Positions 3,608 through 23,889 of a stretch of 32,494 nucleotides of DNA are shown piece after piece (positions within the stretch are counted from its first letter, which is position 1; each line of letters begins with the position of its first letter). Where the stretch lies: positions 1-32,494 of the IMG/VR virus record IMGVR_UViG_3300023174_008661; one strand, 5' to 3'. Both the position numbers and the translations under genes were made by a program. Origin of the DNA: a virus. The notes beneath the pieces were generated by a model. It ran no database searches, was not told the origin of the DNA, and saw nothing but the letters and a program-made list of their open reading frames with translations.

Positions 3608-4688
3608 ATAATTCTAATATTTTTTCGGCAGTATTTTGCCATTTAAAATTTTCAAGCGTATGGCTGTAGTTAGGTAAGAATCTGTCTCTTAATTTTTCTT
3701 TGTTTTCGTAGATAAGTCTCATTTTCTTTGAAATATCATTGCAGTCTGGCATGTATGTCATGCCTGATGGGTGCGCCCTCCAGTATTGGATATTCTTATC
3801 TGCTCTAACATGATTCACATCGAAAAGTATTGAGTTCTCATCATTTAAAAAATCAAGTTGGCCGGTTGCTCTTGGGGCGGCAACAAGAATATTGGATGCC
3901 ATGGCTTCGATAAAGGGAAGTCCAAATCCCTCAGACGAAGAGGTACTTATCAGACAATCAGATGCTTGATATAGTCCGGCCATGTTTTTAATCCTTTCAT
4001 TTAGAATGATTAGCTGTGGAAATATCTTTCCTGGCATTGATCTTTGAACATCAAGGATTATCTCCGAAACATCGCACTCAAATTTTGTTTTTGGTTTGTT
4101 AAGGCTTGTTTTTAAGATTAGTGTTACGTCATCAGCATCAGAAAATTCTTGATAATAAGACCTAATTAGTTTGTCAATATTTTTTCTAAAATGATTTATT
4201 GATATATTGAGAAATTTAAAATTTTTTGCGGTTGCTATCTTATAATTTTCTGGCTTTGAAAATTGCTCTTGATTATAACCAAGACTTACCATCTTGATTT
4301 TCTCTGCCGGCCAGCCATTATCAATCATGATTTTTTCAGAAAAGTAGCTTGATGGCAAAACATAATCAATATGCCTTAGCTCACTCTTCCATTCGACAGG
4401 GATAATCGAAGTCTCATAATTAAATATTGATAATTTTAATTTTGATTTTTTCTTAAATCTGCTCTTCCAATTTAATGGAAGGGTATAGCAAATATCTATA
4501 TCTGGGTCATCACAATCTCTATTATAAAATGTGGAAAGATCGTGAGATAAGTTTTGATATCCGTCGGTAGATGATATATAGAGGTCATGACCCATCTTTG
4601 CAAATTGAATCATGATCTCTTGCATTGTTATCGACCAAGAATGGCTTGTCCCAAACATCGTTTGGGTTCTTATCTTTAGCCTTTTCAT
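3594..4688 (-). CDS. GT4-like glycosyltransferase
   Basis: GT-B fold glycosyltransferase of 364 residues with the classic layout. The N-terminal acceptor domain includes FGTSHSWSITMQEI (12-25). It is followed by LPSSYFSEKIMIDNGWP (111-127) and the linker MVSLGYNQEQF (133-143). The donor domain begins around NISINHFRKN (161-170), where R168-K169 would contact the donor phosphate. STSSSEGFGLPFIEAMAS (248-265) contains the complete E253-x7-E261 pair. Near the C-terminus a W..HP.GM.Y.P pattern resembles the W.P....W.YPS stretch of the other minus-strand glycosyltransferase, so the two are probably related. It begins 27 bases after the amidase stop with only a weak ribosome site. Substrate is unknown; virion or host-surface glycosylation are both possible. 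Confidence 0.88.
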   Translation of the reverse strand: MKRLKIRTQTMFGTSHSWSITMQEIMIQFAKMGHDLYISSTDGYQNLSHDLSTFYNRDCDDPDIDICYTLPLNWKSRFKKKSKLKLSIFNYETSIIPVEWKSELRHIDYVLPSSYFSEKIMIDNGWPAEKIKMVSLGYNQEQFSKPENYKIATAKNFKFLNISINHFRKNIDKLIRSYYQEFSDADDVTLILKTSLNKPKTKFECDVSEIILDVQRSMPGKIFPQLIILNERIKNMAGLYQASDCLISTSSSEGFGLPFIEAMASNILVAAPRATGQLDFLNDENSILFDVNHVRADKNIQYWRAHPSGMTYMPDCNDISKKMRLIYENKEKLRDRFLPNYSHTLENFKWQNTAEKILELYDHI

Positions 4689-5585: not shown

Positions 5586-8500
5586 TTATTGCTTTATATA
5601 TTTAACAAGTATTGAGGCAGTTTCAGATGTCCACTCTGCAAGATCTGCATCTATTATATTAAATGTAAATCCATTTAGAGTTGTGCTTTCATCAAAGTCG
5701 ACCTCTTGAGTTAGCTTATACCCATTTAAATAAACTTCGAGAGTGGCAGCAACAAACTTATAAGAAGTGCTGTATGAAGCCAAAGATGGAACTAACTGAA
5801 TGCTCAAATCTTCTTCAATGTAAACAATCCCATTTGCAGTTATCTCTATAATGCTCTGACCGTAGGATGTGTCATCCAACCTTCTGGTAGAGACGTCACC
5901 AAGTGTTGGTGTTTCGGGGGCTGGTATAGCAAAGGCACAATTAAATGGACCTTCGACAAACGTTCCAACGCCAGTGGTTCCAACTATAAAGTAACACTCT
6001 GTTGTCAAGTCTATTGCAAGATTTTCATCAGCACAACTTCCAAGACCTATTTTCTTAAGATCTGATATGGTTAGGTTTATATCACTATTACGGAATCCAG
6101 ATTTCTTCAGAAATACGCCGAACTTTATAACAGTCCTGTTTTCAGAGTTGATGGAGTCAAAAAGAATATTTTTCGTCTTAAATGAAGCAATTCCTGTTGT
6201 CGGATCTATATTGACACCAACCTTGAATATAACACCTGTGGTTATATCCTCGTAGGATATTTCGAAGAGTACTTCATTTAAAATGCTAATCTCTGAATTT
6301 GCAGTATAGTCAGGCTCAATGACGAAAGCTTTATAATATCCGGGTAGGAATCCGGGTTCCGACATAAATTTCTTAATTATCTCAGTTATATCGACCTGAA
6401 TTGAATCTCCGGAGATCACATCGCCAGGTATGAAGGACTTAATAACGGAATTATCTTGAATTACCGGATAGTTGTAATATATCGGTAGATTATCTGCGTT
6501 GATAATTTCCAATGGAATTATATTGAATGTATCTAGAGATGAAATGTCTGCAGCAGCAGTCATTGTCATGGTCGCAGATATTATATTTGTTCTTGGTGTA
6601 ATTTGGATTGGAAATGATATGGCAGTTCTAGAAATTTCGTTTGTAGAAGAATCTCTTGAGATTAATATATCAGATACATTTACAGATGTTGTATACAGGC
6701 TTCTTACTTCTGTATTCTTAAACCTTGTAACATAATAGAGTCCAGGATCTGGAGAGTCTGACTGCTCTAGAACGAAAGAGATTGCCACAGTACCGGAGCC
6801 AGGCTGAGTGGATGGATTTGTTCCAATTCTTATATACTGTCCAAAGTTCTCTTCAGTTTCACCGCTCATTATATTTAATGGGTTTATGTAATAAGCGAAA
6901 AAAGCATCGTCAATTCTTCTTATTCTAAATAGAATTTCCTGACCGACGGTATCTGGAAGATCAGCTAGGTCTTCAAATGTATAATCTATGTCTCCGAAGC
7001 TATCGTAAATGACGCCTGAATAAAATAGTTTTACCTGATTTGTTCCAAATTGTTTCCAGCCTAACTTCAATATAGAGTAGCTTGAATCTGGGTTAGTAAC
7101 ATACATCTGTATATAAGATGATACAGCTCCCTGTGGTGGAGTTGTAGCCCAAATAACTCTGGCGCCATTAATGTCTACAAGAAGATCTCCGCTTAATGCT
7201 GAAATTTCAGATGGTCCATCAATTTTTCCATATCTAACGCTTGAGCTAGACGTAGTTGTCATCTCAAATGTAACTGGATTGTTTGCTCCAGATGGCTTTG
7301 TTATAACTATTGATGTGGAATTTCCAGGATCTTCGGTCCAAGAGCTAAATTCGGAATATGAATAGTCGACATAATTTTCGGCTATTACATTCTTACTTGA
7401 GGAATTTGAGGTCGAATCTGCATAGCCATCTACCGCATATCCGTCCACTAGCCCGTCAACATAAAGACTTGCTATTGAGCTGGAGAACTTAACTCTTCCC
7501 TTCGATATATCATTGTCAAGTCCGCTGTCCTGACATCCAACATAAGTTCCGTCAGAATATTTCATGGCAGGATAACCTGCTGCAGTCAAGCAGGAACTTC
7601 CACTGGCCTTAATGAATGTATTGTATAGATCAACTTGGCAATCATCTATAGAGCCGGGTGGCAGAGGAACTGTAACAGTCGTATATTCAAAATCTCCGTG
7701 GTATGGAATTCCGGGTTCAGAGTAAATCTCTCCAGCAGGAATATAGATATCTCCTGCAACATACTGCTGATTTCTATAGTTTGGCTCACAAACTGGAGTT
7801 GTATCGCAAGTATCCTCTTCACAAACACAAGAGTTTAGTTTTTCTTCTATGAAATTTCTTGATACAAATCTTCTCAAATCACAAACTTGGAGTGATGATT
7901 GTCTAAATACAGAGTCAATATGCTCAATTCTGTATGATGTCGCCTTAAATGGAACCTGAAGCAGAAGATTATTATCTGCTATAATATTTGTTTTCGTTCC
8001 GCTCAATACTGTTACGGAGAATCCTGTAACAAAAGAGAAGGATGGTAGGGAGCCGTCATCAAGCTCAAGTTCGACTGTTACAGTAAGGTTGTCGGTTGCA
8101 ATTGTCTTTGATGTTATATAGTAGAGTCCCGCACCAACATCCTCGTTTGATACTGAAAGAATATCACCAACTCTTATTGCACAAGCCAATTCTTCTGATG
8201 TTGTTGCGAAAGTGATTTTATTTGTTTCAAACTCAGTAAAAGCAGAGGAAGCAAGATCTTCGAATACGGTTGGGCTATCAGCCGACTCTAAAATGTTCTC
8301 AAGATAGATTTTTAAAACCTTAAATGAAGAATCTACGGAGAAATTTTCATTTCCATCTATAGCGTCTTCGAGTAATTCTAAATCTGTTCCATCGACAGTA
8401 TCATCCCCATTTAAGTCTGACTGCTTAAACTTAACATACTCAAGCTCTCCGGATAATAAGGATCTTTCTGTTCCGGTTGAGTTTATTGTTTTTCCTATAT

Positions 8501-10463
8501 AATTTAAAAACTCGCCCAAATCGCTGGTATTTATTTTTCCATCATTATTAAGATCGCCAACCTTATATGTTAGGCATTCCGACTTAACAATCCTGTATTT
8601 ATAACTACAATTGCAATCTGTATCTGGAACGAATATTCTGTCGACAAGGTTTTCTGAGAGTAATGTAGGCTCTGGAGATACAATGAGAACATAATCCCTA
8701 TTGATCAAACCTGGCTTATTCAGGTCTCCTGTTATTTCAGAGGCGTATCTTGTATTATAATCCGAAATACTTGATAATATTAAAGGATACTGATCTGCCG
8801 AAACTTCTTCTAAATCTTGCGAATTTACTACTGCAATACCGCCGGTATCAAATATTCTTGAGAAAACAAAGTTTCCTGTTCTTGGGTGCGTTACTGGGGT
8901 GATAAATTTTTCTATGTGTTGCAATAAGACATAGTTTATTCCAGAAGAAGATATGTCTACTAGAGATATTCCATCCACATAATTAGATATTTTTGTATCA
9001 CCAACGTATTCTTGCGTCTTTGGAATTGTAATCAAGAAGCTATCGGCAGAATAAGCCGTACCTGGTGTCACCTCTACTGTATCTGAGTAGATTCTATGCC
9101 ATAGAGAAAGATCTGGATAATCTACATATTTTTTGGTAGAAGTGTCATACTCAAAGTATCTTGTGGTTTGATTTCCGAACTCCTGTATAGCATTTTTTGG
9201 TTGACCATTTGAAGTTCTTCTTTCCGCCTCATCCCATCCAACATGGATATTTAAAGTTCCAGTGGAAGTGCTTCCTCTGCGACTTAATATAAAAGAATAG
9301 AAGTTATTGACTTCTAAATTTGGTGATATTGCAGGATCTGCAAGTAGGGTGTTGGAAAAGTTGAAACTAACAATTTGCGGCTGAGTTCCCAGCACAATTC
9401 CCATCGAAGCAAGATCATCTTGATTTACAGATATCTCCATAACTGGCTCGATTTCTGGATCAAAATCAATTAAATTATCTGGGACAACATCTGTTGCGCA
9501 TTTTGTTTCGGTGGATAGTTTATGAATTGATAGAACTAAGTCGCCGGAAAAATCATATTGATTGGCGATAGGAAGGCTGGTGTCCTGGTTTATGGACATC
9601 AAAAGATCAATTCTTTGAAGGTTTGATGTCTTTGCTAAGAACTTCTGTCCGTAGGATACTGTTACGGAACCATTCTTCTGAAAAGAAGATACCTTAGCAT
9701 CAGATAGCTCAAAGTAGAGATCGCTAAAGTTAGCATCAGAACCAATCGCTTCTTTTATTAACTCTTCGATAGTTACTTCGTTGCTATAAGTAATAAACGA
9801 AGCAAGATCTTGAGATGGGGAGTATACCTGGCTCTGAATAACGGCGGCAGGATAGACCTTTAGCTGCTCAGCCTCCATAATCTGTATCTTACCTGAGGTA
9901 AGAGCGAGATTTGAACTGACCATATCAAGACCAAACTCATTTCTGCCTACTCCACCAGAAAAGTTATTCAAAAAGAAAGAGACTACATTTGTATAGTAAT
10001 ATTTTGTAATTAATGTCTGATTTTTATCGAAAGTCAGAAGCTCATATACAAGCTGACCTCCAGAATTGATGCTATCAAATGCGTATCCTACGATAAGCAC
10101 TTTTACGACATCTCTACCTTTGGCTTCCGTGCCAGATACGGATACTTCAAGTCTATTTCCAGCATCAACATCGGATGGCTGCAAATCAAGATAGAGCGGC
10201 TTTCCATCAAAAGTTCCGGCTTCAACGACATCCTTTGAATTTAAGGAGCCTGAAGCAGAATAAAAACCCGGCTTGGAACTATCAAAAAGAACATTTGATT
10301 TGAATATGTTTTCTTTAATTATACCGCTACCATGAAAGTCATTTATAATACCTCCGGTAACAGATTGAATATGAAGCTGCTCAGTATCTAAGTCCGATTC
10401 TGTTATTTTCTGTCCATCGAAAAAATTAACTTTTGGCAAAACGGAGCTTGCTTTATTTTTCAT
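5586..10463 (-). CDS. Large tail-fibre-like protein with dockerin-type calcium-binding pair
   Basis: A 1625-residue, beta-rich, presumed virion protein. The N-terminus (VNFFDGQKITESDLDTEQLH, 12-31) resembles a motif seen at the start of many phage tail structural proteins and may be the attachment end. C617/C619/C630 precede two dockerin-type loops, DLNNDGKINTSD (637-648) and DLNGDDTVDGTD (683-694), with every calcium position filled. A Cys cluster CxCx4Cx5C lies at 879-892. A VDG-rich stretch near 1000-1015 leads into a region that looks like a LamG-type sandwich (about 1060-1230). A DNRLRE-like segment (VDITEIIKKFMSEPGFLPG) follows around 1375. The C-terminus ends with EVYLNGYKLTQEVDF, typical of tail-fibre beta modules. 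A GGAGAG site lies 5 bases before the ATG. It sits after the tail-protein-I-like gene, the position of the fibre gene in P2-type clusters. Confidence 0.75.
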   Translation of the reverse strand: MKNKASSVLPKVNFFDGQKITESDLDTEQLHIQSVTGGIINDFHGSGIIKENIFKSNVLFDSSKPGFYSASGSLNSKDVVEAGTFDGKPLYLDLQPSDVDAGNRLEVSVSGTEAKGRDVVKVLIVGYAFDSINSGGQLVYELLTFDKNQTLITKYYYTNVVSFFLNNFSGGVGRNEFGLDMVSSNLALTSGKIQIMEAEQLKVYPAAVIQSQVYSPSQDLASFITYSNEVTIEELIKEAIGSDANFSDLYFELSDAKVSSFQKNGSVTVSYGQKFLAKTSNLQRIDLLMSINQDTSLPIANQYDFSGDLVLSIHKLSTETKCATDVVPDNLIDFDPEIEPVMEISVNQDDLASMGIVLGTQPQIVSFNFSNTLLADPAISPNLEVNNFYSFILSRRGSTSTGTLNIHVGWDEAERRTSNGQPKNAIQEFGNQTTRYFEYDTSTKKYVDYPDLSLWHRIYSDTVEVTPGTAYSADSFLITIPKTQEYVGDTKISNYVDGISLVDISSSGINYVLLQHIEKFITPVTHPRTGNFVFSRIFDTGGIAVVNSQDLEEVSADQYPLILSSISDYNTRYASEITGDLNKPGLINRDYVLIVSPEPTLLSENLVDRIFVPDTDCNCSYKYRIVKSECLTYKVGDLNNDGKINTSDLGEFLNYIGKTINSTGTERSLLSGELEYVKFKQSDLNGDDTVDGTDLELLEDAIDGNENFSVDSSFKVLKIYLENILESADSPTVFEDLASSAFTEFETNKITFATTSEELACAIRVGDILSVSNEDVGAGLYYITSKTIATDNLTVTVELELDDGSLPSFSFVTGFSVTVLSGTKTNIIADNNLLLQVPFKATSYRIEHIDSVFRQSSLQVCDLRRFVSRNFIEEKLNSCVCEEDTCDTTPVCEPNYRNQQYVAGDIYIPAGEIYSEPGIPYHGDFEYTTVTVPLPPGSIDDCQVDLYNTFIKASGSSCLTAAGYPAMKYSDGTYVGCQDSGLDNDISKGRVKFSSSIASLYVDGLVDGYAVDGYADSTSNSSSKNVIAENYVDYSYSEFSSWTEDPGNSTSIVITKPSGANNPVTFEMTTTSSSSVRYGKIDGPSEISALSGDLLVDINGARVIWATTPPQGAVSSYIQMYVTNPDSSYSILKLGWKQFGTNQVKLFYSGVIYDSFGDIDYTFEDLADLPDTVGQEILFRIRRIDDAFFAYYINPLNIMSGETEENFGQYIRIGTNPSTQPGSGTVAISFVLEQSDSPDPGLYYVTRFKNTEVRSLYTTSVNVSDILISRDSSTNEISRTAISFPIQITPRTNIISATMTMTAAADISSLDTFNIIPLEIINADNLPIYYNYPVIQDNSVIKSFIPGDVISGDSIQVDITEIIKKFMSEPGFLPGYYKAFVIEPDYTANSEISILNEVLFEISYEDITTGVIFKVGVNIDPTTGIASFKTKNILFDSINSENRTVIKFGVFLKKSGFRNSDINLTISDLKKIGLGSCADENLAIDLTTECYFIVGTTGVGTFVEGPFNCAFAIPAPETPTLGDVSTRRLDDTSYGQSIIEITANGIVYIEEDLSIQLVPSLASYSTSYKFVAATLEVYLNGYKLTQEVDFDESTTLNGFTFNIIDADLAEWTSETASILVKYIKQ

Positions 10464-10542: not shown

Positions 10543-13500
10543 TTATTCCTTACAATATCTTTCATCAAAATTAATAACTGCGTTTGAATGAGCAGGCTTT
10601 ATTCTGTTAATCAATTCTACAAGAAGATCTTCCAAGCTTCCATCTCCTATTCCGGCGACCTTTCCGAAAACATCATAAATATCGACATCAAAGTTAAATA
10701 TGCCGCTAACTTCGTCTATGATTGTTGCGAACGAATCTATTTGTTCTGATGGTATGTCAAAGTCAAACATTGCAGTTGTTAAATCATCAGATTTGACCGG
10801 AAGAACTGTGCTTATATTGCTAGAATATGATGGATCTATAATTGTTCCAGAGGAGTCTCGAATTACCGATCTTGCTTGCCTTGAAATTCTCAAGTTATCT
10901 ATTCTAGATTTTGCAGAATAATCATCAAAGAGATCGTTTCCGATTGTAATTTGAGAGAATTGATCATCAAGCTTTATTCTTAATTTAGAAACTAGAGTCG
11001 AAGTATCCAAATCATAATCTTCATTCTGGTTTATTCCGGAAACTCTAAAATAAACCTCCTCCTCTCCGATACCATCAACAACCATTCTTAAGAAATCTGA
11101 CTTTGTACCAGTAGAATAAGAGCAGTTAATTCTGTGCCATTCGCCTGCATCCCAGTCAATGTTTTTAATTACAAAATATTCGCTATCACCACTTATAATT
11201 CTAAATACTATTCTTGAGAATCTATCCTTCAGTATAGATATTCTCTGTCCTGAAAATTCTTTCGGAATATATGTAACGACAACATCTACATTTGCTCCAG
11301 GCATTGCCTCAGATAATATAATCGTCCTTCCATCTGGAGATAGGGCTGCTCCGCCAGAGAAATCTTTTTCCACTCCAGTTCCGCCCTGAAGCATTCCGCT
11401 TATTTCGCTTCTGGAAATTTCGTCAAAAAGAATATCCTGCATATTCTTATCTACAAGATACTCAGAAAACTCCTGAGTGTTCTTAAGTAGTTTTACGCTA
11501 AGTATCTTCGAAGCTGGGTTCGAAAGCTTTATTAAGCTGCTGGATATTGTCTTTGTTGATATTCTTACGGCAGAATAAGCATCAAAATAATATCTGGGTC
11601 TGAAATCATACTTTGTGTCAATCATTGGGCTGACCCAAAACTCAACCTGCCCAGAATCATTTCTCAATATTGAGTTATTATTAAAGAATGAATATTTGTT
11701 ATTGCTAAATTTTGCGGAGCTTCCAAAAGAATCGTTTACGCTAGAGGAGCTTGTGGATACATCTGAGAATATTGGGTATGACTCAGCAATGTTCTTGATT
11801 GGTCCGCCATTTGCACCGTGACATACGACAAATACCTTGGTTGCATCTTCCAAAGAATAACCCATATTTATCATAGTTGAGATAAATTCTTCCTTGTTAT
11901 TTATTAGCCTTATTAGAATCTCTCTTTCTGAAAGATCTAGATTATAGGAGATATTATTTTCCTGGTCCAAGAATTTGTATGTTCTCAGCAACCTTGCTTG
12001 ATAATCTACTGGATTATTGAATGTAATTAGGGACAAAACATTGCTTGAAAGGCAGTGATTTTTTTGCTTATTAAAATCATGCGTTATTGTCTTGGACCCA
12101 CTTAGATTAGACTGATATGGTCTTAAATCTAATAACATTTCGTTTTTGATTACAAAATCATCTATTACTGCGTTTAACTGATTTTTTTCAAAAATAGAAG
12201 AACCAATATATAGTTTATTTCCAATCATCGGGATATCAACAAACAAAGTGCTTGGATACTGAAGCCTATAATATCCTGGGGGCAGCTCAAATGGATCATA
12301 AGCGTCGGAACCAGACGTTCCAATGATTATCTTCCCATCAACAAATCTTTCTATTTTTGCGAAATCGCTGATTCCGTTCTGAACATCAATATTGTCTGAT
12401 TCTTCTAGGGATATTTTGCATACCTCATAATCTGAATCTATTGGCTTCACCTTTCCAGATATGCTATCAACAGAGTAGAATCTTTCGGACGTCTTAAATG
12501 AACCATTTTTATTGAAGAATACTCTCTCGTAAGGACTACCGGAGGAGTTATCTCCATAAACATCTATATAATTGATCTCCTCAGAGTATCCATCCGTTCC
12601 GCAGAATTCTATATTGTCAGTATCTATAATTAGCGATAGGTATCTTCCATCATTAAATTTTGATTTTGATACATATTCACTTGTTAATAGACTTATTTCC
12701 TTATCAACTGTATAGTTAAATTCACTGACAGGTCCATCTTCAATTGTTATGGTGGTCTCGTCAACAATGTAATCTTTAATTATTATTTTTTTAATCTCAA
12801 CATCTAGCAGGTCTCTAGGCTTTGGTCCACTCGTTTGAATCAAACTTATTGATTCACTCTTATCCAAATAGAAAGAAAGATCATTGCTAGCTTCAGTGTA
12901 TAGAGAAGATCCAGAAAGCTGAATTATTTGATTTAATAGTCTTATCTTTAGACCATAAGTTATAATGCTGACTGAAATATCAGTCTTGGAGGCGGACTCG
13001 ACCCATGAGCACGTAGCATCATCATATTTTATAAATTCTATAACTCTTAATTTTGAATTATATCTAAATGACTGCTCGTAAACATTGTTATTTGTTATGA
13101 ATATAGCGCCATCCAAGACTCCGACTTCAACGCCACCCATTTCAAATTGGTTGTTATCACAATCAGTCTTTATAATGGAGAATCTATCATTATATATGTC
13201 GGTCTTTACGTTATAAATATCCCCACATGTTGGTGGAAAAGAGAATGATATATCCGAAGCTGAAACTTGAAATATTACTGGATTAAATGTTTCAGGATCT
13301 CCAAGCTGAATAAAGCCGTCACCAACATCAATTATTGTATAATAGTTGCCAATCAGTGAGTCTGCAAGGACGGAATCTTTTATAATAATTCCTCTCGATA
13401 CTATATTTTCGGTTCCAGTGAAGTAGTCCGAATAAAGCTTGCTATCTCCAGCAAGTATTGCTCCAGAAGTAATGACATCAGAATAAACTATATTTTTGTA

Positions 13501-16500
13501 TATATGATCTTGTAATGTCTCCTGGCTAATATCGGAAAACTTTGCATTTAACTTCAAAGGTATTCTTCCGCCAAATTTATAAATATTTGGAGCCTCAAGG
13601 CCATCAACAAAGAGGTGCATCTCATCTGACTCATTATGAGAGTTCAGCTTCCAACTTGCAGCAATATGGTGCAGCTCTCCAACCCTGAACCCTCTTACAT
13701 CGGTCGATATATTAAATAATGTGTTTTGTTCGCCAATCTTTCTATCGTAAATTCTAAAATTTAAGAATCCCTTTCCGTCTTTGAAAATTGAAAATCTTGA
13801 ATTTGATTCAGATACGCCAGAGTCAACTATATATTTTGGACGATCTGATGTTATAAAAATTTCATCAAGATCCGATAGTGTGGTATATCCATCGATCTGG
13901 TAGAAATCTTCATCAGAGTTTCCGGTTAAACTGAAAGATATTACTGAGTCATTCTCTTGAATAAAAAGATCTCCATCTTCGAGTTTAATGTCTCCATCAA
14001 CGTATTCATATGACATCATTATCAAGTTTATATCAATACTATTGCTAGATACTGAAGATATAAATTCTGATATATTAACAAGTTTTGCATTCAAAATTGA
14101 AGTAGCTATATAATTAGATGGATTAAACTCACATGCTTCTAAGCTTCTTTTGCTGAAACTGGATAGATTTGCAACTAAAATTATTGAGTTGTCCGCAAAG
14201 ACTCTAATAACTCCATCTTTATTTAGAACTTCAAGATTTATAGTATGAAAGTTAAAATCATTCCAGTTAAATATTGCGGAGGTTATCTCCTCTCCTGCAG
14301 CTTGATCTACCAAGCATACGATCTCTTGACCAAATTGGTCAAATGCATATGATACAGAAATCTCGTATTCGTCGGTCGAATATATTATTGGGGAGATACC
14401 TGTGTAGAAAAATGTAGATTCTATTTTATTTAAACCTAAACTTATAACCGAAGAATCTGCAGAATTTACCTTTATTGAGTTGGATATAGAAGTATCACCA
14501 AGATTACACTCATGGGCGGTTAGCAATCCGTATCCAAAATAATTTACTTTTTCATCATATGTGGCCTGGAGAGATTCCATCCTATAGGAAGAACCCGTTA
14601 CAGATGTTGAGAAATCTCCTATTTTTAACCATGGAATTAATTCTTGCTGTCTTCCTCCGAAAACATTTATTAGGTCTGAGTTTGTATCAGAATATCTAAT
14701 CCAACCTTCCTCAAGTGGCTGTTCCGCACAATATCGGAGGAAGCCAGAACAATCTAGCGAATCATTTCCGCAGGATCCGCCAACCAGTCTCCTACCCCTT
14801 GCTGCAGATGAAAACTCTCCATCGGTAGTTATTTTTCCTATCAGTGGCGATGGAATCATTTCTGAAGAATATAGATTTTCGTATCCAGAGCTATTGATTA
14901 TGACATCATATGGCAAATCAGAGAACTTGTTATTTCTAACTTTCACTACCCACTGACCAAGATTTTGGTCTATTGGTGACTTACAGTTGGGATCAAATCC
15001 TATAAAAATACCTTCGGTGTTATCGACCTTTGGGTTGATTCCTACATTATTGCTTGAGTTAACTCGACTCAAGTCAAATATATTTCTATTGGGATGGTAG
15101 CCTGATACCCCAAGGTATATGTCATTTAGACCGAATTTATTTTCTAGCTCAAGCCTAAATCCCTTTATGCTTATTGAGGCTATTGATTTCACACCAATCG
15201 AAAGTTTATTTTTTTCTAGATTTTGAAAGTAATCAGGAATAATAGAGCTAGATTGGTAAAAATCTGTATAGAAATATTGAAATGACTGCCCTAATATAGA
15301 TATATTTGCCAAGTTAGAAACAGGATCTCTGGAGATTACAACTCTGCTAAACTCGGACCAGTTCAACAAGGCGTTATTTGGAGAGCCGAAGAATACATTT
15401 GACTTGTTTGAGCCTGACAAGTCGCTATCATCTGGCTTTAGCTTTATAACTTTGTTTAGAATCATAAAGCTTGTTATTTGAACGGAATTAATCTCGCTAG
15501 CTGATTTTGAAGAAAGTTCTCTGTAATTTTCAGGATACCTCTTCACGGTTATTTTTGATATTACACTTGGTATGTCTGACTTATGTTCAATTCCAAATGA
15601 GTCAAACATAGAGACGACTTCGTATAGATATCCGGATTGATCTACGATAGAGAGGGACTTTGGACTTGATGTTATAACGAAATCTGAATAGATTATATCT
15701 GAAGAATTTAAGCCTAAATCAAAAGATATGCTGAAAGTTAAGTTGTTGAAATTTTGCAAAACTTCATTTTGATTTACGATTTCGCACTTGCAATTTCTAG
15801 TCTGATATGGTGGATCGAAGTTTAACAACTCTTCTGAGGTTATATCAGAAGAAATATAGACGGTTGTAATAGCAGAAGAGAGATACCCCAGTTCTAGCAA
15901 TATCGTCTTAAAATCATCATCAATGGCTATAAAACCACCAGACAAAAGCCTTCTGGAGCCAAAAGATAGATACGGCGTTAATTCACCTGTATTTAAGTAA
16001 TTCTGTTTTATATTTAACGTTAGGCTTGTCTTATTTATTCTTTTTATATCTGATTTATCATGAGTTATTGAGAAATTTAAATCTACATAAGATGGATCAT
16101 ATCCATCTGACTCTGCCCCAGCCTTAAATATTGTTAGCTGTGAACCGGAAGGGTCAGTTCCATGATTGCCAACCTCTATATTTGTAGATGTCTTGAAGCC
16201 ATTCTTAAAGTCAAATGGGTCTCCACCACCTACATAAGAATATATACTTGTTCCGACATTTTCAAAATTAAAGGTTATGGTGGCATCATTATCAATGCCA
16301 TTCCAATTTGGTCTAATCCAGGCCTCTAAAGTTCCTTCGTTCAAAGAGAGGTTTGATATTGCTGGTATACTTACGATGTTGTCGTTATTTATAACTAGTC
16401 CATCGTTAAATTTTGCCGGCTCAAAAGAAAGATTTCCATCATATCTGACACTTTGATGATTTAGATAATCTCTTCCTAAAATCCAATTGCCAAAGATAGA

Positions 16501-19500
16501 TTCCGTTATATCCGGCTTTGTCTTTGTTACAGAACTTACCAAACCTGAAATGGATGGAATTGTTGGGCCCTTAGGAAATGATTGCAATACGCCAATTAAA
16601 AAGTCTCTATAGGTTTCCCTATTCATACTTAAGGGAAAATTCTTTAGCTTTGGTATGTTGGTTAATGCCGCAAAATTCTTCCTTAGCGCATTTCTTAGAG
16701 CTCCATAATTATATGTTACGTAGTATGCATCACCTTCATATATGGAATTATTTATGCTCCAATCAATCTGATTATCACCATGCTCATACCATACTGCCAA
16801 ATTATCATATACATAGGTATAATCTATATAAATTGAGCCATAATGATAATCTATAGCTAGAGCAGTTCCAACTGACGGTGTAAAGGTTGTTAGAAAACTT
16901 ACCTTTATCTTTGTAAAGTTCGAAAATACAAAATTATCAGGTATGGAGATGCTCATAACTCCAGAGGATACAGTTATGGTTGGCTTTAGAACTAAGTCAA
17001 AATAATTTGATGAAAACTCAAATAACGGATTATTTGTGGCATATCTTTCTATAGTAAGATATCCATCAATTTGATTGTATTCGGTTATTAAAAACTCGTT
17101 AAAGATATCGTCTACAACAAAGTCATATCCATCATTAAAATAATAATTTGAATCAATTTGATCGAAGTAAATCTTTATTGTCGTTGGATTTGTAACTTGA
17201 GATGTTACTGATATTGCGCTCTGAAGACGGATATTCTGATGAATATCTATAATTTCCTCACCAGAGTTTGGTTCTACGGCATTATAAAAGCTTGCTATCT
17301 GATCATTCTTTACCTGTATTTCGTATGTTCCGCCCATACCAAGAGTCAATCTTGATGTATAGCTGCCTTTAAAATCTATTATATTTTTATTAAAACTTAC
17401 GTTTGTCGAATCGAAATAATTAAAGCCCCCATCAACAATTGATGTTGTTAGTTCCTGGGCAGTTTTTTCGATAAGGCGATTATAAGGATATACTGAATTT
17501 AAGTTTGAACCAAAAAGATCAGTCAATGTATTTACTGCTGATATGGAGCTAATGTCATAAGTGGTGTAAACCGTGTAGTCAGGCATTACGATAAAAGTTT
17601 CTTGATATTCGCCGTTTGAATTAACTATGGTATCACCAGAATAGTACTGGTATGTAGTTTCAAAATCAAGAATCTTAATAGAGTCCTGCTTGGAGAAGAT
17701 AGAATTATAGACCACCTGAGATTGATTTTTGTCTTCTGATATTTTCTTTCTTTTAGATATAAAATCCGCAGAAATTATATTGTAGTTCTGAGTTGAATGC
17801 TCACCATGAGCATAAGAAACTTCTCCAGCAAAATAAGCTTGGCCGTAATTTACTCCAAGGTAGATTACACCGTTCTGATAATCAACGGAATAATCTCCTG
17901 CTGCTCTTATTTTAGATAGATTCCCGTAAAGTGTATCGGTCGAATCAGAAGAAACGGTGTAGAATATCGAGCCAGATGATGTTGGGAGGATAACATTATT
18001 TTTATTTATTTTTTTAAAATATCTCTCTGATTTAAAAAGGTTGCTGCTAAAATCTAGAGAAGAAGATACAAAGCTTCCTACACCATCTTCATTTTGGTTT
18101 AAAATTACATTGTTTTTTAGATTAAAAACAAATGTTTTAACACCAATTATAATACTTTGTCCGACAGATGGGACCACATCGGATGGAGAGATGGCTAGAG
18201 TTGATATATTATTATTAAAATCCGCAGAATGGAAATATGAAATTTGCTTATCTGTTACTGATATAACTCCATCAACATCCTGATCTATCCTCATAACATA
18301 ATTTGAAGAAGAATCTAAGAATTCCGCAGGGAGGGGAGGACTTATCGATATAGAGCTTGTTGAAGCATTGGAGGTAACAACACCTTTATACATAGGTGAA
18401 ACAACCTCTGCGTTTGCTACTAGCGGTTCATTAAACTCAGTCTTAAAATTAGAAGGCTCGTCTACTTTTGATATTATTCTGGGTAAATTTCTACCCGATA
18501 TGAAGATCTCATTATCATTGAAATAAAGTACGGAATAAACTTCTCCTGTAGTCTGATTCAAAACTCTAAAGACATCTGTAATTGGAGAATTTTCTGTCTT
18601 TAGCGAGAATGATGAAGTATATTTATTCTGAACAAGTTCGCCTAAAGATTCGCTATGAACTCTTGGTAGATAGTCAGTTCCAGGCTTAAATACTGAATTA
18701 TATATATAGTCTATATATATGGTTTTTCCGATTATTGGTCGGTTAGATTTAAAATTAATCTCTTCACTATTTGCAAAGTAATCGACATCCTGCGAGAATG
18801 TATTTTTGAATATATAGTCGCAATAATAATAATTAAATCCAGTACCCTCACCGACCCTGGTAGAACCTACAAGTATCACTTCACCCGTATCATAATTAAC
18901 AGAATATTCCTTTAGGTCTCTAGGAAGCCTGGAGAAATTGAACTCTAATTCTATAGAGAATTCTAGAGGGACTTCATCTGAATTCTCAAATTTTTTAAAA
19001 CTTACACCGCCAGTATTAGGTGTTGTCCCTAGATCATTGATAATTGGAGCGTTCTTAAGAAAGAAGTTTGTAGAATTTGATGGAACAGATTCACTAACAA
19101 CGCTTTCTTTAGAATAAACGGAAAGCGTTGACAGGTCTATATTCTTGGAAACATCATCGTAATAGTATGATACAATTACAGTATCAGTCGGCTCTAATCT
19201 TGAGATGTTTCCAAAATCAGATAGCAAGACTTGGTTAGATGAAAGTTGGTAAAAAGAAAAAGCGTTTTCCTGATCATAACGATTATTTAATATTGAGTAT
19301 TTATACTTCTCAATATCATAATATGTCCCAATATTTCCGTTACAATCTTCAACATCATCATCTTTTATTATTTTAACTGAAAGTACTTTTATGACATTGT
19401 TTTTTGACAAGCTTAAGAGAAAGCCATTGAATGAATTTTCAGAAGTGCTTGAGCTTATCTCTTCTGATTCAATGATGGTTTGCCTTAAGTTTATGGGACT

Positions 19501-20121
19501 TGTCGACGCAGAGTCTATTATCAACTGATTTGAAAAATTATTATCTGACGCTCTAAATTTTGATATAGAGATAACCTCGAAAGCATTTTCGTTAGCCAGC
19601 CTGTCATAAGCTCCAGAACCTCTAGTTCTGGTTTCTTCTATTGCTGATAATTTTAAATAATTGCTATTTAAAACACTGCCAATGTCATGCTGTGTATCTA
19701 AAATTTCTTCCGCAATACCTGAAATGACATTATATATTTTTGTTCCCTCAATATTATATATCTGAGGAATCTTAGAGAGCATGTCATCTCTAATTTTATT
19801 GACATTATCTATTCCAAGAAAGAATATATCACGAGACACAGAGTCATTAATTAACTGCGATCCGTTAGAACCTATGAAGGGCTGATAATCTGTATCCTGG
19901 AGTTTGAGTAAATAATAATTACCAGGAACTTGGGGTCTCGTCTTTAGGGTGACATAATTTGATTGAATTTCAATTGAAACGATTTCAAGATCCGAACCGC
20001 TACCACTTATAGATTGAATGTAGAAATTATCTTTAGTTAGAGATAATGAGATCTCTAGCGAGAAGAATATTTTTAATTCTGTACTAGAAGGAATAAAAAA
20101 TGAGGTTGGTCTCAAAATCAT
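10543..20121 (-). CDS. Giant baseplate protein: tail protein I-like ends around a LamG and beta-module interior
   Basis: A 3192-residue presumed virion protein. Residues 110-185 (MLSKIPQIY..., then ...YDRLANENAFEV) resemble the N-terminal helical region of P2 gpI-like tail proteins. The last 45 residues end in LVELINRIKPAHSNAVINF, a typical tail-protein-I C-terminus. Between them lie about 2,900 residues. Beta modules with the pattern VDYxxGxIxL...VxYxY occupy roughly 240-1200. Three regions look like LamG or concanavalin-A-type lectin domains: EGTLEAWIRP (from 1262), ELHHIAASW...HLFVDG (about 2149-2175), and GQVEFWVSP (2824-2832) with AGEWHRINCSY (2992-3002) and MVVDG. Weaker candidates lie near 1580-1680 and 1900-2020. 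The gene starts inside the J stop codon (TAATG). Likely roles are baseplate-to-fibre linkage and glycan recognition. Usual gpI proteins are about 180-250 residues. Confidence 0.75.
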   Translation of the reverse strand: MILRPTSFFIPSSTELKIFFSLEISLSLTKDNFYIQSISGSGSDLEIVSIEIQSNYVTLKTRPQVPGNYYLLKLQDTDYQPFIGSNGSQLINDSVSRDIFFLGIDNVNKIRDDMLSKIPQIYNIEGTKIYNVISGIAEEILDTQHDIGSVLNSNYLKLSAIEETRTRGSGAYDRLANENAFEVISISKFRASDNNFSNQLIIDSASTSPINLRQTIIESEEISSSTSENSFNGFLLSLSKNNVIKVLSVKIIKDDDVEDCNGNIGTYYDIEKYKYSILNNRYDQENAFSFYQLSSNQVLLSDFGNISRLEPTDTVIVSYYYDDVSKNIDLSTLSVYSKESVVSESVPSNSTNFFLKNAPIINDLGTTPNTGGVSFKKFENSDEVPLEFSIELEFNFSRLPRDLKEYSVNYDTGEVILVGSTRVGEGTGFNYYYCDYIFKNTFSQDVDYFANSEEINFKSNRPIIGKTIYIDYIYNSVFKPGTDYLPRVHSESLGELVQNKYTSSFSLKTENSPITDVFRVLNQTTGEVYSVLYFNDNEIFISGRNLPRIISKVDEPSNFKTEFNEPLVANAEVVSPMYKGVVTSNASTSSISISPPLPAEFLDSSSNYVMRIDQDVDGVISVTDKQISYFHSADFNNNISTLAISPSDVVPSVGQSIIIGVKTFVFNLKNNVILNQNEDGVGSFVSSSLDFSSNLFKSERYFKKINKNNVILPTSSGSIFYTVSSDSTDTLYGNLSKIRAAGDYSVDYQNGVIYLGVNYGQAYFAGEVSYAHGEHSTQNYNIISADFISKRKKISEDKNQSQVVYNSIFSKQDSIKILDFETTYQYYSGDTIVNSNGEYQETFIVMPDYTVYTTYDISSISAVNTLTDLFGSNLNSVYPYNRLIEKTAQELTTSIVDGGFNYFDSTNVSFNKNIIDFKGSYTSRLTLGMGGTYEIQVKNDQIASFYNAVEPNSGEEIIDIHQNIRLQSAISVTSQVTNPTTIKIYFDQIDSNYYFNDGYDFVVDDIFNEFLITEYNQIDGYLTIERYATNNPLFEFSSNYFDLVLKPTITVSSGVMSISIPDNFVFSNFTKIKVSFLTTFTPSVGTALAIDYHYGSIYIDYTYVYDNLAVWYEHGDNQIDWSINNSIYEGDAYYVTYNYGALRNALRKNFAALTNIPKLKNFPLSMNRETYRDFLIGVLQSFPKGPTIPSISGLVSSVTKTKPDITESIFGNWILGRDYLNHQSVRYDGNLSFEPAKFNDGLVINNDNIVSIPAISNLSLNEGTLEAWIRPNWNGIDNDATITFNFENVGTSIYSYVGGGDPFDFKNGFKTSTNIEVGNHGTDPSGSQLTIFKAGAESDGYDPSYVDLNFSITHDKSDIKRINKTSLTLNIKQNYLNTGELTPYLSFGSRRLLSGGFIAIDDDFKTILLELGYLSSAITTVYISSDITSEELLNFDPPYQTRNCKCEIVNQNEVLQNFNNLTFSISFDLGLNSSDIIYSDFVITSSPKSLSIVDQSGYLYEVVSMFDSFGIEHKSDIPSVISKITVKRYPENYRELSSKSASEINSVQITSFMILNKVIKLKPDDSDLSGSNKSNVFFGSPNNALLNWSEFSRVVISRDPVSNLANISILGQSFQYFYTDFYQSSSIIPDYFQNLEKNKLSIGVKSIASISIKGFRLELENKFGLNDIYLGVSGYHPNRNIFDLSRVNSSNNVGINPKVDNTEGIFIGFDPNCKSPIDQNLGQWVVKVRNNKFSDLPYDVIINSSGYENLYSSEMIPSPLIGKITTDGEFSSAARGRRLVGGSCGNDSLDCSGFLRYCAEQPLEEGWIRYSDTNSDLINVFGGRQQELIPWLKIGDFSTSVTGSSYRMESLQATYDEKVNYFGYGLLTAHECNLGDTSISNSIKVNSADSSVISLGLNKIESTFFYTGISPIIYSTDEYEISVSYAFDQFGQEIVCLVDQAAGEEITSAIFNWNDFNFHTINLEVLNKDGVIRVFADNSIILVANLSSFSKRSLEACEFNPSNYIATSILNAKLVNISEFISSVSSNSIDINLIMMSYEYVDGDIKLEDGDLFIQENDSVISFSLTGNSDEDFYQIDGYTTLSDLDEIFITSDRPKYIVDSGVSESNSRFSIFKDGKGFLNFRIYDRKIGEQNTLFNISTDVRGFRVGELHHIAASWKLNSHNESDEMHLFVDGLEAPNIYKFGGRIPLKLNAKFSDISQETLQDHIYKNIVYSDVITSGAILAGDSKLYSDYFTGTENIVSRGIIIKDSVLADSLIGNYYTIIDVGDGFIQLGDPETFNPVIFQVSASDISFSFPPTCGDIYNVKTDIYNDRFSIIKTDCDNNQFEMGGVEVGVLDGAIFITNNNVYEQSFRYNSKLRVIEFIKYDDATCSWVESASKTDISVSIITYGLKIRLLNQIIQLSGSSLYTEASNDLSFYLDKSESISLIQTSGPKPRDLLDVEIKKIIIKDYIVDETTITIEDGPVSEFNYTVDKEISLLTSEYVSKSKFNDGRYLSLIIDTDNIEFCGTDGYSEEINYIDVYGDNSSGSPYERVFFNKNGSFKTSERFYSVDSISGKVKPIDSDYEVCKISLEESDNIDVQNGISDFAKIERFVDGKIIIGTSGSDAYDPFELPPGYYRLQYPSTLFVDIPMIGNKLYIGSSIFEKNQLNAVIDDFVIKNEMLLDLRPYQSNLSGSKTITHDFNKQKNHCLSSNVLSLITFNNPVDYQARLLRTYKFLDQENNISYNLDLSEREILIRLINNKEEFISTMINMGYSLEDATKVFVVCHGANGGPIKNIAESYPIFSDVSTSSSSVNDSFGSSAKFSNNKYSFFNNNSILRNDSGQVEFWVSPMIDTKYDFRPRYYFDAYSAVRISTKTISSSLIKLSNPASKILSVKLLKNTQEFSEYLVDKNMQDILFDEISRSEISGMLQGGTGVEKDFSGGAALSPDGRTIILSEAMPGANVDVVVTYIPKEFSGQRISILKDRFSRIVFRIISGDSEYFVIKNIDWDAGEWHRINCSYSTGTKSDFLRMVVDGIGEEEVYFRVSGINQNEDYDLDTSTLVSKLRIKLDDQFSQITIGNDLFDDYSAKSRIDNLRISRQARSVIRDSSGTIIDPSYSSNISTVLPVKSDDLTTAMFDFDIPSEQIDSFATIIDEVSGIFNFDVDIYDVFGKVAGIGDGSLEDLLVELINRIKPAHSNAVINFDERYCKE
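18481..18558 (-). repeat. Module copy in tail-I-like protein shared with the J-like protein
   Basis: This codes for residues 522-547 of the giant protein, beginning NQTTGEVYS and ending ISGRNLP. The adjacent J-like protein has NKTTGEIYS...ISGKNLP at the matching spot. Identity is clear at protein level (N.TTGE.YS and ISG.NLP), with a nine-residue length difference between the two blocks. I see no long nucleotide identity, so the duplication is old or the sequences converged within a common fold. Confidence 0.55.
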
Positions 20122-23100
20122 TATGTTAGCCTAAAATTTTTCCGAGATACTGCTTCTAATGTTATATTACCAGGATTTATTGTTTGATTATCTAATGCCT
20201 TGATGTAAGACTTTCTTCCATTATTTCCAGAAATATTAAACAATGATATATTTACGGAATCAACGCCATCAACGCCCATGACGGTAGAAATTATGTCGGC
20301 ATAATCTATAGTTGGACCAAGGATATTTGTGCTGAGGGCAGAAGAAATTGCATTAGACGCATTTTCAAGAATTGTATCAGTGCTACCTATCCTATTTTCA
20401 TTTATTAAGATTGTTCCCTTTACATCAACCTTAAGCTCTTCAGCTTGCTTTACAAGAACGTCTGCAGTTACAGGTCTATAATTTTCTATAGAGTTAGTTA
20501 CGTCCAAAAGAAGTTGATTTATATTATATCTTACTGTAATTCTTTCTCCTTCTATTGGGGCATTAAAAGAATAATCAGAAAAATAGACAGTATTTGATAG
20601 AGGTTGGTTTGCAAAAGAAACCTGTATATTACCAGAGATGGATCCGGTCGAGCTTCTAAAACCAGAGGATGCGCTAATTCTTGATATTCTAGCGTAGGCT
20701 TTTGAGGTATACATTGTTTTATTTCCGGAAAAATATATTTCTTCCGAATCATTTAGCCTGGAAAGTATGCAATCAATATATATTTTGGTGCCAGACGAAA
20801 GTGATGCTCCGGTATTTACGGGTGTCGGTGGCAGAGAGAATTGATATGGCTCAAGAGTATCGTTAGCTCTAGATGAGAATGTATCGAATATATTATTGGA
20901 TAAATAATAACCAAGTATATCGAATGAAAAATCTTTCTTATCTTGCGAATCTAATGTGTAAATTGAATCAATTCTTGAAATATAATAATCAGTATTATAT
21001 GACGTTAATCCGAGATATTCAAGTATTTGAGCTTTCAAATCTCCGTTCAATCCATTGAAAATATTTCCGTAATTACCAGAGAATGTGACTCTTGAGAAAG
21101 AGGTTCCAGAGACCTTTATTCTTCCGGCACTGGAAGAGTTTGTGATAGAGACTGCCAATGGAGATGGAGAATTTTTAAGGATTGATGCTGGCAACAATGT
21201 GTCTTCATCGAAATTGAACGCCAAAGGTTGTATAGAAGAGTCTATAGTTGAGGAGTTCACAGAAAATATAGAGTTATTCTGGTCATTTCCTGTTGCAGGA
21301 AGGAGCGCCATACTGAAGGATGGAATAACAAAAGTTCTATCTTCAACATAATCAATATATACTGGTGTCAGTAAGTTTGAGGCGTTAATTACTAAATTTA
21401 GTAAGTTGCTATTTGATAGAACATCCGCAGATGGTAGTGTTATTATTTTTTGAGAGAATGATGCGTCAGTATTTTCAACATTATATATTTCGTTGTAATT
21501 ATAAGCGATAGTTACCGACTCTCCAAGAATTGCAGGAGTATCTGTGGGCAAATATATTGTCAGTCCAGAAAAAGTACCATCTGATTTGCTGGTATTGTAT
21601 ATCTCCAATCCGGTAGATGTTATTATATAGTTTATATTAAATATCTCCGCACTTCCTACAGGAAGTACCAATCCAAAAGAAGAGCCGGTATCAACATTTG
21701 ATATGGAAGATACGGTTGAAGATATTATATCTTGCAATTTAACAGAAACAACCCTTGAGATATTATTCGCAACGGTTATCTTGAAAGTTGTGTTGTCATC
21801 TTCCGATGATATTTCGGAAGTCTCACCTCTTATGCCGTTAGAAACACCCCAGTCTATAACATTTGAGATGTTTGGATCTCTAAAGATGGAGTTTGATTCA
21901 AAGCCATTATAATCAACATATTTATCGAAATATTGTCTCCAGGTATAGTCTACGGCTAAAATATCGGATTGATTTGGTAAGTTTTTTCCTGATATTTTTA
22001 CAAGCCCGCTATTGTTAAGACCTGTGACCGGATCTATCTCTTGAGACTCTATTGAATAAATTTCTCCAGTAGTTTTGTTTTGAATTTTTGCAACATTGAC
22101 AGTTGGCTTATGTAAGAAGGAAATATAACTCTTGTCTGAAAGTAGAACTGAAGAGTTTTCTTGAGATATATTTACATCTCTATAAATATTTTTGATTTCA
22201 GATATGACCGAAGATGAGGTCTGATCTATTGAGTTTATAGACTGCTTTGTTATATTCTCACCAACTACATTTTTTCTATAATCGATAAAGTGTAGCTTAT
22301 CAAATGAGAATGGACTCCCGCCAGTATCTGGATTCTCATCTTTAATTAACTCATAATTTCCAGATACTATTCCGAGCTCACTAACTGATTTTTCTAAGAG
22401 TAAGCCAGACTGACTTCCATAAACAGAAACTAAAGCATAAACCGGCTGGGCTGGCAAAACGCCTGTTTTAAATGCGTTAACCCTTCTTTCTTGAGACGTT
22501 CTTGTTAAGTCTGTTGTAGTGGAACCTATAACAAAGTCATTTCTTTCATCGGTTACGTTTCCGGTTCCAGACTGGTCTCTGAAGATAAATGACTCGCTAA
22601 CCTCTCTTAAGAGCTTCCCAAGAACATAGATGTCTACTTTTCCACCAGTTCCAGAGTTTAGAATTCTATATGTTCCGTCGTTTATTTTGATAGTTTCTGT
22701 TCCATCTCTTAACATTAGCGTATTGCCTGGCTCAACCACTAGTGCGTCTAAAACACCGTTAACTGTTAGTGCGGCATTTCTATATCCAAGAGAAGTTCCG
22801 GTATTTGAACCGCTGAATACGGAGGCTATTCTGGTTCTAAATATATTGTCAGACTCTTGATTTGTTCCTCCACTCATTGATGAGAGGTTGACTACCTTCA
22901 AATCGGACTGAAGATTATGATTTAAAATCTGTAAAGAGCTGACATTTCCAGAAGTTCCAGATCTTGCTGCTTGAACCGGAACCTCTAAAGCATAAATGTC
23001 ATTATTTCCTGCGATCTGAAGGCTTCTTTTCAATCTGTTTGCTGTCGCAGCGTATCTGGCCTTAGCGGAAGATTGAAAAATATAATTACCAACCGTATTA

Positions 23101-23450
23101 TAAGTTACCCCATTTTTAGCGGAAACCTGAGAACCAGAGGGTATCGAAATATCTTCAACAATAGAGTTTGTTGTAAAAACTACCACTCCGCTTGCACCAA
23201 CACCTTTTGTTCTTGAGATTCCGAAGTTAGATGCATATTTATCAAGATCTGTGCCTGATGCAGTTTCTGGGGATTGCTTTTCAGCAACTATGGATATAAC
23301 TCTATATAACTTTTCGAGCTGATCGGCAGGAAGATCTATAAAAAGATCTCTAGCAACAGTTCCTGGCTTCGTATCCAGGTTTGGCTGTGTAAAAGAGAGC
23401 CTCTCTAGCATTGACGTGATTAACTGATTGAATGATTTGAAAGTTGACAT
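20121..23450 (-). CDS. Baseplate wedge protein, gp6/J-like (Baseplate_J), enlarged
   Basis: Baseplate wedge subunit, the family of P2 gpJ and T4 gp6, which forms the iris ring linking central hub and fibres. The core matches well over residues 25-285: KPGTVARDLFIDLPADQLEKLY (28-49), QSPETASGTDLDKYASNFGISR (59-80), ISIPSGSQVSAKNGVTYNT (101-119), ARSGTSGNV (162-170), and SGGTNQESDNIFRTRI (193-208). The C-terminal arm (IENYRPVTADVLVKQAEELKVDVKG, then DYADIISTVMGVDGVDSV) fits the family end. At 1109 residues it is two to three times the usual length. The extra ~700 residues (about 290-985) are beta modules, some resembling modules in the next protein. It starts 7 bases after the gp25-like stop, with an AGGT site overlapping that stop. 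Confidence 0.92.
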   Translation of the reverse strand: MSTFKSFNQLITSMLERLSFTQPNLDTKPGTVARDLFIDLPADQLEKLYRVISIVAEKQSPETASGTDLDKYASNFGISRTKGVGASGVVVFTTNSIVEDISIPSGSQVSAKNGVTYNTVGNYIFQSSAKARYAATANRLKRSLQIAGNNDIYALEVPVQAARSGTSGNVSSLQILNHNLQSDLKVVNLSSMSGGTNQESDNIFRTRIASVFSGSNTGTSLGYRNAALTVNGVLDALVVEPGNTLMLRDGTETIKINDGTYRILNSGTGGKVDIYVLGKLLREVSESFIFRDQSGTGNVTDERNDFVIGSTTTDLTRTSQERRVNAFKTGVLPAQPVYALVSVYGSQSGLLLEKSVSELGIVSGNYELIKDENPDTGGSPFSFDKLHFIDYRKNVVGENITKQSINSIDQTSSSVISEIKNIYRDVNISQENSSVLLSDKSYISFLHKPTVNVAKIQNKTTGEIYSIESQEIDPVTGLNNSGLVKISGKNLPNQSDILAVDYTWRQYFDKYVDYNGFESNSIFRDPNISNVIDWGVSNGIRGETSEISSEDDNTTFKITVANNISRVVSVKLQDIISSTVSSISNVDTGSSFGLVLPVGSAEIFNINYIITSTGLEIYNTSKSDGTFSGLTIYLPTDTPAILGESVTIAYNYNEIYNVENTDASFSQKIITLPSADVLSNSNLLNLVINASNLLTPVYIDYVEDRTFVIPSFSMALLPATGNDQNNSIFSVNSSTIDSSIQPLAFNFDEDTLLPASILKNSPSPLAVSITNSSSAGRIKVSGTSFSRVTFSGNYGNIFNGLNGDLKAQILEYLGLTSYNTDYYISRIDSIYTLDSQDKKDFSFDILGYYLSNNIFDTFSSRANDTLEPYQFSLPPTPVNTGASLSSGTKIYIDCILSRLNDSEEIYFSGNKTMYTSKAYARISRISASSGFRSSTGSISGNIQVSFANQPLSNTVYFSDYSFNAPIEGERITVRYNINQLLLDVTNSIENYRPVTADVLVKQAEELKVDVKGTILINENRIGSTDTILENASNAISSALSTNILGPTIDYADIISTVMGVDGVDSVNISLFNISGNNGRKSYIKALDNQTINPGNITLEAVSRKNFRLT
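21975..22079 (-). repeat. Module copy in J-like protein shared with the tail-I-like protein
   Basis: This codes for residues 458-492 of the J-like protein, beginning NKTTGEIYS and ending ISGKNLP. It lies in the non-core insertion and pairs with 18481-18558 in the neighbouring gene. It is followed by DILAVDYTW, and the copy in the other protein is also embedded in strands of VxYxY type. Confidence 0.55.
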
Positions 23451-23457
23451 AATATAC

Positions 23458-23889
23458 CTATACTATTCTAATAGTAATTACTTCGTCAATGGATTCTAGT
23501 TTTTGTGTTAAAACAGAAATAAAGATATTATACATTCTTGGATCTGTTTCATCACGCTCTATTGCTATATTTTTTATATCTAAAATTATCTCAGAAGAGG
23601 AGAGGAGCTGCCTTCTTGATTGCTCTCTTTGTAGCTGCATCAAATATCTGATTGCCGATTGTGCGGATTGTTTTAAGTCCTCCTCAATTAGAGCCTGATC
23701 GAGGATAGTTCCAATCTGCAGTTGCCCGGTGTTCGATCCATATTGTGGATGAAATCTGTTCTCACCAATTTTGGTTAGTATGATTTTAACGATATCTTGT
23801 CTGATTTTGTCATTACCAGATACGATGGACATTTCACCGCTAGATTCTAGAGAAATATCTCCAGATTTTATTTTTAAATCAAATGACAT
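23458..23889 (-). CDS. Baseplate wedge protein, gp25/W-like
   Basis: A 143-residue protein of the IraD/Gp25-like family (T4 gp25, P2 gpW), which sits at the inner baseplate and nucleates sheath assembly. The family signature is a helix followed by ILTKIGENRFHPQYGSNTGQLQIG (37-60), equivalent to the conserved L...GE...YG.. region. The protein then continues through a long helix (63-97) and ends in paired strands (IILDIKNIAI, then YNIFISVLTQ). Its length is normal for the family. An AGGA motif lies 9 bases before the ATG. It is followed 7 bases later by the J-like gene, reproducing the W-J order of P2-type and many myovirus baseplate clusters. Confidence 0.92.
   Translation of the reverse strand: MSFDLKIKSGDISLESSGEMSIVSGNDKIRQDIVKIILTKIGENRFHPQYGSNTGQLQIGTILDQALIEEDLKQSAQSAIRYLMQLQREQSRRQLLSSSEIILDIKNIAIERDETDPRMYNIFISVLTQKLESIDEVITIRIV

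Follow-up and report, generated by a model that had tools for sequence, protein, structure and literature searches.

The window analysed here is the whole 32,494-nt stretch of IMG/VR virus record IMGVR_UViG_3300023174_008661, which is probably a fragment. Along one strand, the minus strand, it encodes in order a 2,160-aa protein, a 632-aa protein, a gp25-like protein, a Baseplate J-like protein, a 3,192-aa protein with a Laminin_G_3 domain, the 1,625-aa protein that is the subject of this report, an amidase and two glycosyltransferases. The first of these (25850-32332) contains a TIG (Ig-like) domain and has no PHROG match. The gp25-like sheath initiator or baseplate wedge protein (23458..23889, minus strand) scores just below the cut-off of the Pfam Sheath_initiator profile and matches a PHROG baseplate family with an E-value of 9e-14. 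The wedge protein (20121..23450, minus strand) is recognised by Pfam Baseplate_J (E 7e-24) and is a relative of phage G gp188. The giant Laminin_G_3 protein (10543..20121, minus strand; Pfam) is a candidate virion partner of the 1,625-aa protein. It carries a lone EF-type loop at aa 613, DQDVDGVISVTD, which is retained as DENIDGVISVTD in L004; a second loop is absent. The glycosyltransferase genes (1716-2771 and 3594-4688) lie downstream of the 1,625-aa gene in the window and also in near and distant relatives (L005, L046 and L086), which hints at glycosylation of the virion or of the host surface.

This neighbourhood is a contractile-tail baseplate module, and its genes place the 1,625-aa product, annotated initially as a virion fibre protein, in the tail/baseplate module. 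From the gene order we infer that it is a fibre or peripheral baseplate protein. Searches of the 1,625-aa sequence against known fibre families gave no match, and the only PHROG hit was a weak one of unknown function.

The gene (5586..10463, minus strand) is the sole long ORF in its interval, and approximately 1,500 of the 1,625 residues can be aligned across 20 near orthologs. The N-terminal region, aa 1-330 (9474..10463, minus strand), contains an NFFDGQ motif and is kept in all members of the family; it is probably the baseplate anchor, a role suggested solely by its position. An OB-like beta-barrel at aa 730-824 (7992..8276, minus strand; VIA-align) is optional in the family. It resembles T5 pb9 and tailspike domains with middling Z-scores of up to 7.5, a likeness of the model that may reflect just a common arrangement. 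Five distant members have only a shrunken OB-like domain (approximately aa 725-830) or none at all and lack aa 1011-1400, yet they retain the dockerin described below. A C-terminal extension of about 110 residues, aa 1516-1625 (5586-5915), is absent from most relatives; in L026 its place is taken by a different one, roughly 270 residues long. DGY triplets are scattered and unusually frequent in the distant dockerin proteins L084, L085, L086 and L088, and the window protein contains the stretch DGYAVDGYADS. Sequence searches with alignments of the N-terminal region, of aa 1010-1265 and of the C-terminal region found no solved relatives.

Dockerins are best known from bacterial cellulose-digesting complexes, in which they are the plug-in tags of the enzymes. 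The initial annotation had proposed a dockerin-type calcium loop pair within positions 8379-8614 of the window, corresponding to aa 617-695; the full domain covers approximately aa 636-704 (8352..8558, minus strand), as judged from the Pfam profile, the AF2 model and VIA-align. The residue numbers and coordinates given for the loops proved correct in the single long minus-strand ORF. Predicted calcium loop 1, DLNNDGKINTSD, occupies aa 637-648 (8520..8555, minus strand) and predicted loop 2, DLNGDDTVDGTD, aa 683-694 (8382..8417, minus strand), and both indeed have D/N at positions 1, 3, 5, 9 and 12. The linker between them, aa 649-682 (8418..8519, minus strand), is modelled with helices at 647-652, 663-670 and 676-682. 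The loops are spaced 46 residues apart, whereas the CelS dockerin of C. thermocellum has a spacing of 32, which makes this linker longer by about 14 residues. The two repeats are identical at 7 of 22 residues.

The Pfam Dockerin_1 profile (PF00404) matches aa 636-701 with an E-value of 5.8e-6 and a score of 26.8 bits, above its cut-off of 22.9, and a search of the whole record located Dockerin_1 at nt 8361-8558 with 30.8 bits. The EF-hand models, on the other hand, remain below their cut-offs (EF-hand_7, 14.7 vs 30; EF-hand_6, 13.1 vs 25), and we rejected a plain EF-hand pair (PF13499 and related profiles) for that reason. When solved structures were searched with phmmer, dockerins came first (CelS, E about 1e-5) and generic EF-hand proteins next. 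Shuffling the protein 5,000 times produced a loop pair of this type, 20-70 residues apart, in 0.02% of cases; a chance match is rejected by these shuffles, by the profile score and by the family-wide conservation.

Structure prediction with AlphaFold from 3 sequences gave a pLDDT of 40 and was not usable, whereas with 20 sequences the mean pLDDT rose to 78, with values of roughly 79-93 across the dockerin. The four best chains found with this model by VIA-align are all dockerins (Z 8.5, 7.8, 7.7 and 7.6), with many more at lower scores; the top dockerin match, at Z 8.5, has an rmsd of 2.2 Å over 66 residues. For a domain this small such Z-scores, near 8, are modest, but the fold agrees with the sequence profile. 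The best Foldseek match in the PDB is also a dockerin, with a weak E-value of 3e-2. In the model the domain is preceded by a predicted beta strand at aa 623-634 (8562..8597, minus strand; model strand 39-50) and followed by another at aa 713-723 (8295..8327, minus strand; model strand 129-139). The predicted fold is the loop-helix fold of dockerins, so that neither a missing profile hit nor a separation of the loops speaks against the original assignment, and the pair is a genuine dockerin by both the profile and the predicted fold.

To assemble the family we used queries from different parts of the protein. The dockerin by itself retrieved 2 viral relatives and aa 585-1004 retrieved 24 loci, while the two queries that exclude the dockerin, aa 850-1010 and aa 1-330, retrieved 9 and 35 loci, respectively, the latter including members that are just 28-35% identical over aa 1-584. 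Removal of duplicates left 29 distinct proteins, namely that of the window and 28 others from uncultured phage contigs, most of which came from the queries without the dockerin. At least 13 of the contigs are longer than 200 kb, with a maximum of 459 kb; many family members thus belong to jumbo phages. The loop pair is found in all members with contigs that extend to the site (29/29), down to 25-30% identity; the contig of L002, whose protein is 91% identical, ends at residue 584, ahead of the dockerin. The universal presence of the dockerin is not an artefact of the search, as two of the queries do not contain it. A recent acquisition or an add-on module was rejected, since no member lacks the domain, not even those retrieved by the queries that exclude it. 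Dockerin_1 exceeds its cut-off in the window and in several relatives, with uneven scores: several near members score approximately 10-18 bits and distant ones up to 38 bits. There is one dockerin gene per genome.

Beyond this family, tblastn of the full protein and three relatives against 50,697 phage records returned no match, and a search of genome contigs for bacterial relatives found none. Searches with the dockerin stretch and the CelS dockerin recovered just short unannotated faecal contigs and one hypothetical protein of a Ruminococcus phage, located near the end of its record.

The dockerin is under purifying selection. In both loops the Asp residues at positions 1 and 12 are invariant (29/29), and loop 2 has D/N at positions 1, 3, 5, 9 and 12 in all 20 near members. 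In loop 1 the ligand at position 3 or 5 is lost in 3 near members, and site 1 may therefore not bind Ca2+ in every member. Ligand columns are far less variable than the remaining D/N columns of the protein, with a mean entropy of 0.54 vs 1.59 bits (p 1e-4), and they retain D, N, S or T in 99% of cases vs 71%. In the domain dN is well below dS, to be read qualitatively as synonymous sites are near saturation.

The length of the region is constant too. In 28 of 29 members the loops are spaced 46 residues apart (53 in L081), and among the 20 nearer members there is not one indel in the 124 residues of aa 585-708. These data bear on the earlier suggestion of a calcium-dependent hinge, considered here as a flexible, calcium-controlled joint that would alter the shape of the fibre at adsorption. 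Ca2+ can switch the conformation of EF-type loops and the domain is flanked by predicted beta regions; the lack of indels and the constant spacing, however, better suit a rigid packed unit, and we regard a hinge as improbable.

Dockerins act in bacteria by binding cohesins, and the Pfam cohesin profile (PF00963, E<=10) was accordingly run on the window record and 24 related virus records. No cohesin was detected in these 25 records, but most of them are fragments and cohesins diverge, so that a partner may have been missed. A weak cohesin-like match was noted at 309757-310032 of phage G (L049), at an E-value of 5e-4 yet short of the Pfam cut-off, in a genome that has no dockerin match. We then considered the cohesin-facing positions of the dockerin, which we take to be positions 10 and 11 and the subsequent helix positions, as in type I complexes. 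In the first repeat, positions 10, 11, 14, 15 and 18 fall in the 92nd-100th percentile of variability for the domain. In the second repeat the cohesin-facing positions are conserved, position 11 excepted. With a variable first face, and repeats that share only 7/22 residues, the symmetric, dual-mode surface for cohesin binding is not preserved in its usual form. The second half of the dockerin looks from its sequence conservation as though it is packed against something constant.

The proposal that the dockerin docks the virion to a cohesin on the host surface, as an adsorption factor, is not supported by these observations. Cohesin binding is the canonical function of dockerins in bacteria and the variable first face could mirror differing receptors, but the domain is fixed at constant length in the conserved core of the protein in 29/29 members and not in a variable distal part, the contact positions have no shared code, and the presence of the domain in every member across deep divergence would require cohesin-bearing hosts throughout. 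We consider host docking the least probable of the readings, and very unlikely. As the dockerin is a permanent part of the core family-wide, it most probably serves to stabilise or assemble the virus particle and not to hook a host cohesin.

The main rival is docking inside the virion, an alternative already raised in the initial annotation. Here a second virion protein, such as the Laminin_G neighbour, would offer a cohesin-like beta-sandwich into which the dockerin plugs, and two tail parts would be joined through a calcium-dependent dockerin joint. The constant position of the dockerin is compatible with such a constant virion partner. Every member has the domain, the helix positions of the second repeat are conserved, and the Laminin_G giant is directly upstream of the dockerin gene in the window and in L005, L046, L081 and L086, a set that includes near and distant members. 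Against this, the Pfam cohesin profile had no match in the 25 records searched and the first-repeat contact positions are among the most variable of the domain. Docking within the virion is a possibility that we hold to be fairly unlikely, and less probable than the explanation given below. Its specific form, a calcium-dependent cohesin-dockerin pair in which the cohesin-like domain of a neighbouring tail protein has diverged too far for Pfam, is about as unlikely in our estimation. Internal docking would be the more novel outcome, if true.

We favour, with reasonable but not high confidence, the explanation that the dockerin forms an integral part of the core of a family of baseplate-proximal tail proteins of large phages and is stabilised by calcium. 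It builds on properties obtained by computation: the domain itself, its predicted fold, its universal presence at constant length and the purifying selection. Ca2+ binding, the packing partner, the location in the virion and the role in assembly are what we infer from them. Each of the two loop-helix units would hold one Ca2+ ion, and together they would form a compact knob held fast between two beta strands of the chain. For the second half, which is the more conserved, the most likely packing surface is its own chain or a neighbouring subunit. Such packing would make the region rigid and could provide a calcium-dependent step in the folding or assembly of the tail protein. We consider a rigid role of this kind, in stabilisation or assembly, more probable than either a hinge or docking to the host. 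If confirmed, it would mean that the dockerin fold serves a structural role in virions and would offer a testable reason for a calcium dependence of phages of this family. The NFFDGQ motif, the dockerin and the Laminin_G neighbour would then together constitute a sequence handle for tail proteins that are currently unannotated.

In the open-licence literature, searches for dockerins together with phage, tail fiber or baseplate yielded no study that describes such a domain as part of a virion protein. A structural protein of an E. coli phage has been described with a structural resemblance to a dockerin/CBM-like protein (2WZ8; PMC5967307), which is not a calcium loop pair. The UniProt entry A0A6J5RS54, a large protein of an uncultured Caudovirales phage, is named 'Dockerin domain-containing protein' by automatic annotation, which indicates that such annotation has already picked up something similar; our AF2 model matches its predicted structure weakly (E 6.6e-3, TMq 0.34). 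The baseplate region of Bacillus phage G (gp188, gp189) is comparable in that gp188 is the Baseplate_J relative of the window wedge protein, but phage G contains neither a dockerin nor any protein recognisable as a counterpart of the 1,625-aa one, and it was therefore discarded as a source of homologs. The CHAP domain of LysGH15, a staphylococcal phage lysin, contains an EF-hand-like Ca site with a 12-residue loop that lacks one flanking helix and has been likened to a dockerin (PMC4022735). It is a single site in an enzyme, whereas a dockerin pair in a tail protein is found here. The closest comparison is with type I dockerins (CelS Doc48S; the second dockerin of Clo1313_0689, PDB 8x39). The phage domain differs from these in being internal rather than terminal, in its longer linker, in its repeats with just 7/22 identical residues, in that no cohesin was found alongside and in its unconserved first cohesin-facing surface. 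It shares with them the two calcium loop-helix units, a profile score over the cut-off and a predicted fold that matches the solved dockerins. What we rate as new is the occurrence of a genuine dockerin in the unusual, fixed structural setting of a tail protein.
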